A DNA stretch of 11,621 nucleotides from a bacterium (GTDB lineage Bacteria > CAIJMQ01 > JAADFP01). Below the pieces are notes generated by a model. It worked only from the letters and a program-made list of their open reading frames with translations. It did no database searches and was not told where the DNA came from. The position numbers and the translations under genes were made by a program. Position 1 is the stretch's first letter; each line of letters starts with the position of its first letter. The stretch covers positions 1 to 11,621 of the forward strand of contig JALUVB010000101.1 in NCBI GenBank assembly GCA_027021085.1. Direction: 5' to 3'. Of the stretch, positions 5,613 to 11,268 are shown in pieces.

Positions 5613-5677
5613 GCATCACTAAAAATCTTCTCGAAAAGGGAATCGATGCATCATGTAAAAATCTTCTCGAAATGGGG
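5613..5677. repeat. Two direct repeats at the left end of the insertion sequence
   Basis: Two units with a 36-bp period share an identical 17-mer, TAAAAATCTTCTCGAAA, at 5620-5636 and 5656-5672. Each is preceded by GCATCA and followed by GGG after one variable base. Subterminal direct repeats next to a transposase gene are commonly transposase-binding sites. The exact IS tip cannot be fixed because no right end is preserved. Confidence 0.6.
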
Positions 5678-5693
5678 AGAAAAAAATAAAATA

Positions 5694-5727: not shown

Positions 5728-6020
5728 ATGAAAAAGATAGTAAATCTTACCACGAGGAAAGAGATGAGTAAAGCTTTAGCCAGAAGATATCAGAAAGTAA
5801 GGAAGAAGGAGAAGACAGAGATTCTGGATGTTTTTGTAGAGATGACTGGATACCACCGGGTATATGCGAGATGGCTTCTAAGGAACTGGGGAAGGAAGAT
5901 AGAAATAAGAGGGAAGGAGGGAAAAAGGATAATCCTGGTGGGAGAGGCAGGGAGAAAGATAAAACGCAACAAGTGCAGGGAATACGGAGAAGAAGTGGCA
6001 AAAGTTATAGTAAAGGTGTG

Positions 6021-6057
6021 CCTGCCCGCCCCGACGTAACGTCGGGAAGCAGGCGGG
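6021..6057. repeat. GC-rich palindromic micro-element, copy A (37 bp), inside transposase
   Basis: Begins CCTGCCCGCC and ends GCAGGCGGG. The outer arms CCCGCC/GGCGGG enclose an inner stem CCCGACG-TAA-CGTCGGG. It splits the transposase Trp codon TG|G, adds 37 bp, and brings an in-frame TAA at 6039-6041. Deletion restores KVWKIL. No target-site duplication is visible. Confidence 0.8.
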
Positions 6058-6639
6058 GAAGATATTAAATTTCCCCTGTGGTAAAAGGCTGAAGGCTATC
6101 CTACCGGAAATAATAAGGGTACTGGAGAGAGAAAGAGAAATAAGAATAAGTCCGGAGGTCAAAGAGAAGTTAGAGAGAATCTCCTCTGCTACCCTTGACC
6201 GGATACTTAAAGAAGAGAAGAAGAAGTGGGACATAAAGAAATTAAAGAAAGGATCTACAAAACCAGGAAGTCTCCTAAAGTCTCAGATTCCGATAAGGAC
6301 ATTTATGGAGTGGGATGATAAAAGACCAGGATTTGTAGAGATAGACCTGGTAAGTCACGATGGAGGAAATCCCCGGGGAGATTATCTTCATACCCTGGAT
6401 GTAACAGATGTATCAACGGGCTGGACTGAGACCCAGGCAGTAAAAAATAAAGCCCAGGTTTGGGTGTTTGAAGCCTTAAAGGATATCATCAAAAGAGTGC
6501 CTTTCCCTATTCTGGGTATAGATTCGGACAACGGAAGTGAGTTTATAAATAATCACCTTTTGAGATTCTGCGAAGAAAAGAAAATTACCTTTACCCGTAC
6601 AAGACCTTATAGGAAGAATGATAACTGTTATGTAGAGCA

Positions 6640-6672
6640 CCTGCCCGCCCTCCTTCGTCGGGAGCAGGCGGG
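6640..6672. repeat. GC-rich palindromic micro-element, copy B (33 bp), in-frame inside transposase
   Basis: Same ends (CCTGCCCGCC, GCAGGCGGG) and outer stem, with inner arms CTCC/GGAG. The 33-bp insert keeps the frame, splitting CA|A and adding 11 residues including LPALLRREQAG between the catalytic VE and KNYSVV. Deletion gives VEQKNYSVV, the usual family string. Confidence 0.8.
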
Positions 6673-6844
6673 AAAGAATTACTCAGTAGTAAGGAAGACA
6701 GTAGGATATTATCGCTACGATACTGAGGTGGAATTAAATCTCATAAATAAGCTCTACCTTATCTTGAGACTTTATACCAATTTCTTCCAGCCTTCCATGA
6801 AGTTAATAGAGAAAGTAAGAATAGGCAGTAAGGTAAAGAAGAAA

Positions 6845-6870
6845 CCTGCCCGCTCCGCAAGGCAGGCGGG
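6845..6870. repeat. GC-rich palindromic micro-element, copy C (26 bp), inside transposase
   Basis: Starts CCTGCCCGCT and ends GGCAGGCGGG, with inner CC-GCAA-GG forming a GNRA-type loop. It lies exactly between the AAA and TAC codons and shifts the frame; deletion joins KKK to YDTPKTPY. Confidence 0.8.
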
Positions 6871-6931
6871 TACGACACACCTAAGACTCCTTACCGGAGA
6901 GTACTTGAATCTCCCTCTGTTTCTCAGGAAG

Positions 6932-7424
6932 CTGAATAATGTCTCCTAGTCTCTGAGGCCTGTATCCTTTTCTCCTTAATTTCTTCTTCCTCCTGATCTT
7001 TTTTATCTTACCAAATTGGCTTATTTTCCTGGGTCAGAAGAAAAGATTACATCGCTTTATTATCCTGGCTATGCTGGAGGCAGACACACTCTTTACCCTT
7101 TTCTCCTTACAATATTCATCCAGCAGAACTTTTATCTTTTCCTTCCCTAAATACGGTCTCTCCTTCCTTAACCTTCTTTATGAATTCTATTATCAGAGGC
7201 TCTATCTTCGGCTCCCTTCTATTCTTCGGTGCCTTAGATTTACCATTGAGCTCCTCTAATCTCCCTCTACACTATTTAAGCTTTTTCCTCCACAAATATA
7301 TGGATGACTTACTCACCCCGAATGCCTCCATCGTGAGTTTCACCCCGTATTTCTCTAAGAAATCCACTGCCTTTGCCTTCCTTTTCGCCTTTTCCGTTAC
7401 CATCTCTACTGCCTTCCAAGGCAT
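6932..7424 (-). pseudogene. Decayed IS481-like / integrase-core transposase fragment (N-terminal half)
   Basis: Reading the minus strand from ATG at 7424 gives MPWKAVEMVTEKAKRKA, then a helix-turn-helix (TMEAFGVSKSSIYLWRKKLK). An in-frame TAG (7274-7272) follows, after which the same frame continues RLEELNGKSKAPKNRREPK. A one-base frameshift near 7160 moves the sense frame, which goes on with YLGKEKIKVLLDEY, SASSIARIIKRCNLFF, a TGA at 7036-7034, then KISQFGKIKKIRRKKKLRRK and GYRPQRLGDIIQ. This order matches IS481-type transposases just before the catalytic LDT motif, which is absent: homology stops at about 6932, where the plus-strand transposase begins to match. At least three lesions plus truncation make it non-functional. 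The true 5' limit could reach 7484, since the frame is open to there; 7425-7556 holds no other gene that I can see. Confidence 0.7.
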
Positions 7425-7556
7425 TGAGTATACCTTACGACACCCTCTCAGGCAAAACCCCGGGAAAGGCACATATATTCCCATACTCTTTGCTTTCTCC
7501 TATTCACCCACTTCTCCATATCTACCCACATGCTCTCCTCCCTTCCCGCAAGCTTA

Positions 7557-8162
7557 TCATCTATGTTTCCATCCCCTATCTGCCTGCTTATCCGGCTGCA
7601 ATTTCTCCCGGCAACTGAAAACACACCCACAATACCTCTGGCGATAGAGACCCCACTCCTTTGCCATCGTTATGCTTCTTTTAAACCCTTCTTGCTTCTT
7701 AAAATCACGGCTGAGAAAATAGAGGGGGGAGAGATTTTCACCTATCCGATTTATGAGTTCTGCGTTTTTATGTGGGCTTACCGTGAGCGTGCTGGTAAAA
7801 TAGGCAAATCTTCCTTTTTGAAAAATCTCCCGGGTTTCCTCAAGCCTCATCCTGAAACAAATTTCGCATCTTTTCCCTCCCTCCTTTTCTTTCTCCCAGC
7901 CTTTTACTCTCTTCTGCCATTTTTCTGCCTCGTAATCCCCTACTATATACTCCAATTTCATCCTCCGGGTAACTTCCAGGAAGCTTTCCAGTCTTTTCTC
8001 GTATTCCTGGCGAGGATGAATGTTCGGATTGTAGAAAAAGCAGGTGACTTCCCACCCTTCCTCCCTCAATCTTTCCACCACAGAAGCAGCACATACACTG
8101 CAACAGACATGCAGTAATATTTTCCTTGCTTCAGGTTTGCTTATCTTATAATTGCTGTGCAT
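7557..8162 (-). CDS. queH: Epoxyqueuosine reductase QueH
   Basis: The 201-residue protein carries the QueH (former DUF208) signature: LLHVCCSVC with Cys20, Cys21 and Cys24; FFYNPNIHPRQEYEKR at about 42-57; KRCEICFRMRLE with Cys99 and Cys102; FTSTLTVSPHKN at 122-133; and QRYCGCVFSCRE with Cys178 and Cys180. These cysteines hold an iron-sulfur cluster and a nearby metal in the family, which reduces epoxyqueuosine to queuosine in tRNA (GUN anticodons) and replaces QueG. The frame is open upstream to an ATG at 8267, but that extension runs into repeat DNA. The ATG at 8162 has a GGAGAAGG ribosome site 6 nt away and fits the family N-terminus, so I use it. A TATAAT-like box (8181-8176) lies just upstream, with no clear -35. 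No other queuosine gene is in the window. Confidence 0.93.
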   Translation of the reverse strand: MHSNYKISKPEARKILLHVCCSVCAASVVERLREEGWEVTCFFYNPNIHPRQEYEKRLESFLEVTRRMKLEYIVGDYEAEKWQKRVKGWEKEKEGGKRCEICFRMRLEETREIFQKGRFAYFTSTLTVSPHKNAELINRIGENLSPLYFLSRDFKKQEGFKRSITMAKEWGLYRQRYCGCVFSCREKLQPDKQADRGWKHR

Positions 8163-8224: not shown

Positions 8225-8414
8225 GTTCACTGCTTACTATCTTCTGCTCGCTACCTGCTATTCTCACTCTCCGTCATTCCTGCGCAAGCAGGAATCCATT
8301 CCCGCGCTACTATCTATTCACTACTCGCTACTCCCTACCATTCACTGTTTACTGTTCACTATTTACTGTTTACTATAACCCAGTCTACAGTCTAAAGTCT
8401 ATAGTCTAAAGTCT
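8225..8414. repeat. Heptad-rich tandem repeat array, copy 1
   Basis: On the minus strand this is a run of 7-mers such as TTTAGAC, TATAGAC, TGTAGAC, a TGGGTTATAG joint, then TAAACAG, TAAATAG, TGAACAG, TAAACAG, TGAATGG, TAGGGAG and TAGCGAG. The whole array recurs at 8567-8704 with few differences. This copy is interrupted near 8245-8305 by a hairpin repeat. It lies between queH and the AMMECR1 gene and has no coding signature. Confidence 0.8.
8273..8298 (+). repeat. Dispersed hairpin repeat with GCAA loop, copy 1
   Basis: ATTCCTGC (8276-8283) and GCAGGAAT (8288-8295) are exact 8-bp arms around GCAA, within GTCATTCCTGC...ATCCATTC. This matches a very common bacterial intergenic palindrome family (read as VIPAQAGIH when conceptually translated). 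It interrupts the first heptad array. Confidence 0.75.
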
Positions 8415-8470
8415 TGCGTGGATGCCTGCTTTCGCAGGCCTGCCCGCCCTTCGGGAGCAGGCGGGCATGA
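8415..8470 (-). repeat. Dispersed hairpin repeat with GAAA loop, copy 2, split by a micro-element
   Basis: On the minus strand, after removing 8439-8465, this reads GTCATGCCTGC-GAAA-GCAGGCATCC, the same family as 8273-8298 in the opposite orientation. Stem pair T-A of copy 1 is G-C here, and the loop GCAA becomes GAAA: both changes keep a GNRA hairpin. Confidence 0.7.
8439..8465. repeat. GC-rich palindromic micro-element, copy D (27 bp), nested in a hairpin repeat
   Basis: Ends CCTGCCCGCC and GCAGGCGGG are the same as copies A and B, with a CC-TTCG-GG centre (UUCG-type loop). It sits in one stem arm of the hairpin repeat, between GCAGG and CATGAC, so this element arrived after that repeat. 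Confidence 0.8.
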
Positions 8471-8566
8471 CATGCAGGCTGGTTGCTTGTCATTCTTGCG
8501 AAATCTATCCCCTTTACCAAGAAACCAGGATTACCAGGGAACCAGGATACCGAGTTACTATTCACT
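8471..8566. repeat. Spacer between heptad arrays with degenerate repeat pieces
   Basis: Contains GTCATTCTTGCGAAATC (about 8490-8506), which looks like a decayed third copy of the hairpin repeat, and three close ACCAGG units between 8524 and 8546. I see no gene here. Confidence 0.4.
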
Positions 8567-11000: not shown

Positions 11001-11044
11001 TGTATATATTCAATAGATTCTGGGTAATGTAATAAAATTCCTGT

Positions 11045-11064
11045 AAAAAAGAGGAGAGCCTCCT
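11045..11064 (-). terminator. Possible rho-independent terminator for the right-edge gene
   Basis: On the minus strand AGGAG-GCT-CTCCT forms a short 5-bp hairpin followed by C and six T residues. It lies about 205 bp beyond the stop of the upstream minus-strand gene and before the panC promoter. The stem is short, and its bases overlap the inverted repeat at 11054-11111, so the call is tentative. Confidence 0.35.
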
Positions 11065-11111
11065 GATAAAATGAGGCAAAATTATTAACTACCTAAAAGA
11101 ATGAGGCTCTC
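11054..11111 (+). repeat. 9-bp inverted repeat ending at an ATG (possible IS leader hairpin)
   Basis: GAGAGCCTC (11054-11062) and GAGGCTCTC (11103-11111) are exact reverse complements 40 nt apart. The right arm contains a GAGG ribosome-site-like string and directly precedes the ATG at 11112. The arrangement is like the leader of the transposase at 5694-5727. Confidence 0.45.
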
Positions 11112-11210
11112 ATGAAGAAGATGCTACCTTCGGAAGGGATACGTAAGATGATGTCAAGCCGTCAAGCCAGAAGTCATAGGAACCGGGGAGGGAGATGTAT
11201 CGGGCTTTAA
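11112..11210 (+). pseudogene. Short ORF, possible N-terminal remnant of a transposase
   Basis: A 32-codon frame encodes MKKMLPSEGIRKMMSSRQAR followed by SHRNRGGRCIGL and a TAA. With a one-residue shift it keeps the pattern of the transposase start at 5728: MKK, then RK-x-M-S, then A-R. It also has an inverted repeat ending at its ATG, as that gene does. It stops abruptly, and nothing similar follows to 11268, so I read it as a leftover of an IS 5' end. The match is weak, and a chance ORF is possible. The rest of 10987-11268 shows no gene. Confidence 0.35.
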
Positions 11211-11268
11211 GGGGGTTGTTTTCGTCAAGTTCGTGAAAAGAGCAAGTTTTTTCCTCTACTCTTCTATA

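Follow-up and report, generated by a model that had tools for sequence, protein, structure and literature searches.

The stretch of DNA analysed here (the window; 11,621 nt) carries a transposase gene interrupted at three points by short palindromes with like ends, which raises the question of whether these inserts are mobile elements in their own right and, if so, of what kind. Using an exact pattern scan, a common start CCTGCCCGC and a common end GCAGGCGGG were found in four copies in the window (A to D, Table 1), and the placement of A, B and C in the first-pass annotation was thereby borne out. Markov-1 simulations of the window (n=2000) yielded zero matches to the end pattern. The arms of the element pair as a hairpin in which a T.G wobble and a C.A mismatch each occur once, and an Rfam search of the window gave no family match.

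Table 1. Element copies and associated features in the window. Slashes mark insertion points.
Feature	Position	Strand	Length	Sequence or frame	Context
Dead DDE transposase gene (rve domain, ISNCY family, ISLbi1-like)	5728..6942	+			Carries copies A, B and C
Copy A	6021..6057	+	37 bp	CCTGCCCGC-CCCGACGTAACGTCGGGAA-GCAGGCGGG	TGG codon split; transposase frame shifted, stop at 6037-6039
Copy B	6640..6672	+	33 bp	In frame	CAA (Gln) codon split, VEQKN motif region
Copy C	6845..6870	+	26 bp	Frame-shifting	Between codons AAA and TAC (KKK/YDTP)
CGTC-type REP, intact	8273..8297	+		GTCATTCCTGCGCAAGCAGGAATCC	Palindrome class differing from the element; REP class from PMC3733652
Copy D	8439..8465	+	27 bp	Intergenic	Within a TGTC/CGTC-type REP palindrome

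The transposase gene is present as a single copy in the host genome (G000), and a protein search identified plasmid ISNCY-type transposases as its nearest relatives (55.7% identity to Mycobacterium riyadhense, 49.5% to Leptospira ISLbi1). When the flanks of A, B and C were joined, the sequences KVIVKV-W-KILNFPCGKRL, NCYVE-Q-KNYSVVRKT and KVKKK-YDTPKTPYRRVL were obtained, with zero residues lost or doubled, and the four gene pieces summed to 371 codons plus a stop, matching the continuous 372-codon frame expected on removal of the inserts. Six homologous transposases aligned with the four pieces were all ungapped at all three joints and lacked the inserts; because the homologs are continuous there, A, B and C are each an exact insertion. 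The frame is shifted by copies A (+1) and C (+2), which have thus left the gene dead; B is in frame. The C-terminus of the transposase looks shorter than that of its homologs.

Further copies beyond the four in the window are present. Neither of the two outcomes named at first reading as refuting was thus observed, namely inserts at the same places in homologous transposases or a genome lacking additional copies. Scanning the host genome (1.93 Mb, 307 contigs) gave 12 exact copies versus 0 for a reversed end pattern used as control, and at two mismatches 61 matches, some of them overlapping, versus 0 for the control. Across 98 genomes, 106 exact matches were found versus 1 for the reversed control, including 8 copies in a genome of the same genus as the host (G001) and 47, 18 and 3 copies in G004, G003 and G006, from another family of the host's class; only copies with exact ends enter these counts, and scans with relaxed arms also catch shifted registers. 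Near-relatives of the window cores occur in G003 and G004, namely CCCCGATGTTACATCGGGACAA for A, TCTCCTTTGTCGAGA for B and TTCCGCAAG for C. In G004 (37% GC), CCTGCCCGC and GCAGGCGGG had the top over-representation ratio among the ranked 9-mers, with 61 observed versus 2.2 expected; the G004 sample comprised about 1.19 Mb of sequence with 41 copies. Chance or composition as the origin of the copies was rejected by the reversed-pattern controls and the 9-mer enrichment. Single chance matches do occur, as indicated by matches of 21 bp in a fumarase-like gene (L155) and of 48 bp in a DAHP-synthase-like gene (L127), both of which we take to be native enzyme sequence. Orphan ends in G004 were also considered as IS ends; this was rejected, as they are degenerate copies or single ends, and no larger autonomous element sharing the ends was found among them.

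The element is widespread beyond the host's class. At least 119 stretches with the pattern were found in a scan of named genomes, and the 9-bp ends, with different cores, occur in Bacteroidota, Verrucomicrobiota, Lentisphaerae, Desulfobacterota, Patescibacteria, Omnitrophota and others. The counts cover 38 genomes behind selected loci, each chosen for having at least one match, and were highest in Bacteroidetes OSL_B.mb.4 (211 copies), with copies also in Verrucomicrobia KR13_N2.mb.73 (87), Lentisphaerae GWF2_57_35 (77), Saprospiraceae (33), Verrucomicrobia KR13_Ju (28), Desulfobacteraceae Eth-SRB2 (26), Ignavibacteriae (21), Actinomycetota (17), Nomurabacteria (17) and Omnitrophota (7). Matches to the reversed pattern numbered 0 across the 38 genomes except for 1 in a high-GC actinomycete, Nocardiopsis, with 1 match and 1 control; high-GC genomes yield such chance matches and were left out as carriers. 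With many copies and lengths of 21-51 bp, the elements resemble tagged REPs, which are dispersed palindromes of 20-40 bp. Counting against recent movement, the ends may be shared in part through old vertical descent; some sites common to G003 and G004 differ only in their cores.

Empty and filled sites in sibling genomes were then compared. A 33-bp insert in the phosphofructokinase (PFK) gene of G004 is absent from G003, G005, G006 and G000, where the sequence is continuous across the point, the empty-site placement being base-exact only in the closer relatives. At locus L181, G003 has a 33-bp copy and G004 is empty (GATAA/TGTAATC), and at L190, G003 has a 54-bp insert consisting of one element nested in another and G004 is again empty. 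On the minus strand, the empty site of copy D reads TGTCATG/CCTGCGAAAGCAGGCATCCA, and several further G000 copies lie, like D, within one composite of this TGTC/CGTC-type REP and an inserted element; the elements nest, accordingly, in each other (L190) and in REPs (D). No duplication was found at the empty and filled sites, and in the window any direct repeat next to copies A to D is at most 1 bp long. The absence of target duplication remarked on at first reading thus held in both comparisons, and the elements depart from MITEs, which are defined by terminal inverted repeats with duplication and a parent IS. Three sites are common to G003 (L180, L197 and L187) and G004 (C11:524848, C6:78235 and C11:194813) with different cores, and two of the three differ in element length (24 vs 33 bp). 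Such orthologous sites (L180, L197) show that cores change or get replaced and ends stay. Collectively, comparison of the sequences shows the insertions to be exact, and mobility of the element is well supported by the same alignments.

Copies also occur in live genes. The proposal that the element accumulates in a dead IS accounts for the three copies in the dead transposase gene, but not for those that lie elsewhere in frame within intact housekeeping genes. The genes with an insert in G004, identified from translations, encode PheT, LigA, a DEAD-box helicase, PFK and CoaBC, and searches of solved structures placed the inserted peptide at an alignment gap in the DEAD-box helicase and LigA and at a match break in PFK. 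In-frame copies add 8-13 amino acids, yielding peptides such as PARxxAGG, LPASxxQAG and PACxxAGR, and copies within protein domains occur in both orientations. Lengths were divisible by 3 in 24 of 25 G004 copies within ORFs of at least 200 aa versus 5 of 14 outside (ORF <120 aa; Fisher p = 8e-5), the ORF criterion by itself favouring frame-keeping lengths. That most G004 copies lie in long ORFs, and the 25-bp type almost solely outside them, points to selection.

Ends and cores were compared in a 167-kb sample of OSL_B.mb.4. Among 36-bp copies, 28 had perfect arm pairs and a handful had 1-3 changes, in a scan that is arm-seeded; a relaxed scan finds few imperfect arms, and its peak at 4 mismatches consists mostly of the reverse complement. 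The 31 distinct 18-base cores had a mean identity of 48% versus 26% for shuffled cores, and the ends were ~98% conserved. Near-constant arms beside cores only 48% alike exclude the decay of single copies, since the arms would decay too. In every genome set, folding was more favourable for whole elements than for versions with unchanged arms and shuffled cores (mean z -0.7 to -1.3). Compensatory arm changes in a shifted register (left 5-8 / right 6-9) were suggestive once, found no support in an unbiased scan and were rejected. In the same genome, tandem 36-bp element pairs with different cores are arranged head to tail at L309 (1943-2014 and 3521-3592).

We consider the inserts to be, with a probability of about 0.82, a family of non-autonomous palindromic mobile elements of 21-51 bp, in which fixed 9-bp ends, CCTGCCCGC and GCAGGCGGG, flank a core that varies, and the element in its entirety folds onto itself. 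The comparisons above show that the ends are sharply bounded and that insertion is exact, without target duplication and almost without target preference. The elements would move in a folded form, either single-stranded or as a hairpin, with an end-recognising factor presumably supplied in trans. Insertion would be near-random, so that any copy may survive in dead genes such as the ISNCY-type transposase, and in live genes selection would retain only in-frame, tolerated copies, leaving short added peptides. The weak flank preference, with T at -1 in 9 of 129 copies, counts against fully random insertion. A further idea, of a class of ultra-small mobile elements spanning phyla in which the ends are constant, the core is rewritten at each move and 12-codon inserts in frame would spray short diversified peptides into the proteome, seems to us rather doubtful.

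The enzyme that might move such elements was sought among Y1 transposase (PF01797) genes. These were found in G000, G003, G006, G007 and 14 of 15 named carriers, and also in 5 of 14 control genomes; they were absent from G004 (47 copies), G125 (87) and G001 (8), genomes that are possibly incomplete. At the 31 Y1 loci inspected in carriers, no element lay within 300 bp of the gene, the nearest being 460 bp away. The link to a RAYT/TnpA_REP-type transposase suggested by the first-pass annotation is therefore not supported. Many of the Y1 genes in carriers are flanked by their own repeats, other than the present elements: at L337-L355, from several phyla, genes of ~220-350 aa are framed by GGGTCAGGTCTTG/CAAGACCTGACCC or by GGGACGT types. 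Such Y1 genes (L337-L355) are a separate small-IS class. Transposition of the IS200/IS605 type by Y1 (HUH) enzymes, with hairpin recognition and insertion without target duplication, is a working-alike candidate, from which the present elements differ in having no fixed target tetranucleotide and in occurring in G001, G004 and G125, which have no Y1 gene. An HUH/Y1-type single-strand transposase may be the enzyme, a candidate that we put at about one in three.

The comparison with REP sequences and Rickettsia palindromic elements (RPEs) drawn at first reading proved apt as a description of behaviour. RPEs are palindromic and dispersed, lie in frame in unrelated housekeeping genes to which they add peptides, and have no known enzyme (PMC10969869; PMC3733652). 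Like RPEs, the present elements are palindromic, dispersed and peptide-adding in frame, in otherwise intact genes. They are set apart by the RPE descriptions, in which the elements are ~150 bp long and come from Rickettsia (PMC10969869); RPE-4 and RPE-6 are CGTC-tagged. The present ones are 21-51 bp and untagged, combine fixed ends with a variable core, and are found in many phyla. GTAG- and CGTC-tagged REPs are 20-40 bp palindromes of many phyla, some of them in UvrABC, LigA, RNA helicases and tRNA synthetases, and the CGTC class is without a dedicated transposase (Di Nocera 2013, PMC3733652).

It was accordingly considered whether the inserts belong to an already catalogued CGTC- or GTAG-tagged REP, or RPE-4/RPE-6, family, a reading that has a small chance of being right. 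The two share the size class, the imperfect palindrome, in-frame genic copies and the lack of a tie to a transposase (CGTC REPs, PMC3733652), as well as a CCYGC/GCRGG vocabulary like that of CGTC-1, and copy D lies within a CGTC-type REP. This REP is seen at about 8420-8472, interrupted by D; CGTC REPs are described in PMC3733652. However, neither a GTAG nor a CGTC/TGTC tag was found at the element ends in the flank composition of 146 copies, and a CCA tail and a repeat-flanked RAYT are likewise lacking. Outside the 9-bp ends these flanks are near-uninformative, with no conserved motif and 0.24-0.27 bits at the strongest position; T is avoided at -1, and a weak pattern spans +2 to +5. Core lengths range over 3-33, much wider than loops of 4-5, the constant T.G/C.A arm asymmetry is unmentioned for CGTC stems in PMC3733652, and the head-to-head dimer organisation of tagged REPs was not seen among the present elements.

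A second alternative is that the inserts are repair patches, that is, hairpin oligonucleotides or short RNA/cDNA pieces end-joined into double-strand breaks with no dedicated transposase. The absence of target duplication, the near-random targets, the variable cores and the failure to find a linked enzyme at the 31 Y1 loci in carriers would all be expected of such patches, but ends that are base-exact across phyla and the loss of no target bases are unusual for end joining, and the cores form genome-specific subfamilies; we regard this origin as improbable. Two further origins are scarcely tenable: selection could have spread a functional motif of DNA or RNA, such as a terminator or protein-binding site, or the pattern could be an artefact of composition or assembly. 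A terminator role is possible for GC-rich hairpins and high-GC genomes do yield chance matches (Nocardiopsis, 1 match and 1 control), yet protein domains hold copies in either orientation, copies are present at 37% GC and in several independent assemblies, relatives have clean empty sites and the window had no Rfam match.

Small elements of related habit are also known elsewhere: cyanobacterial SDRs and mitochondrial GC clusters or double-hairpin elements are tens of bases long, insert without target duplication, nest in repeats and move by an unknown mechanism. To our knowledge, the sequences of SDRs and mitochondrial GC clusters differ from those of the present elements and have not been reported across many phyla. 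No earlier description of the element family was found in the literature searched by sequence and by description. We read the mobile palindromes described here as a new, untagged family of hairpin micro-elements, REP/RPE-like in behaviour, and infer that they are mobilised in trans. The movement of REP- and RPE-like palindromes has been a puzzle for decades, given the age of most sites and the lack of a known enzyme; the present family, with exact ends, empty and filled sites in siblings, nesting and carriers in many phyla, makes mobility, target choice and enzyme association comparatively testable. In addition, uncultivated bacteria can hold many inserts of 8-13 residues in core enzymes, which bears on annotation and on the tolerance of proteins to insertion.

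The surroundings of the interrupted transposase gene were also surveyed. No relatives of the transposase were found in viral contigs (search of viral_contigs), and a DNA search of plasmids found no match for the IS. A second, heavily decayed transposase remnant with an HTH-like KAKAVDFLEKYGVKLTMEAFGVSKSSIYLWRKK lies on the minus strand at 6946-7560, convergent with and abutting the ISNCY-type gene. Closely 5' of the transposase start, at 5618-5690, AAAATCTTCTCGAAA is present as two direct repeats, which may represent the left IS end. Further downstream, at 11026-11220, an ATG ORF (MKKMLPSEGIRKMMSSRQARSHRNRGGRCIGL) that ends at a stop is possibly the beginning of another IS fragment.
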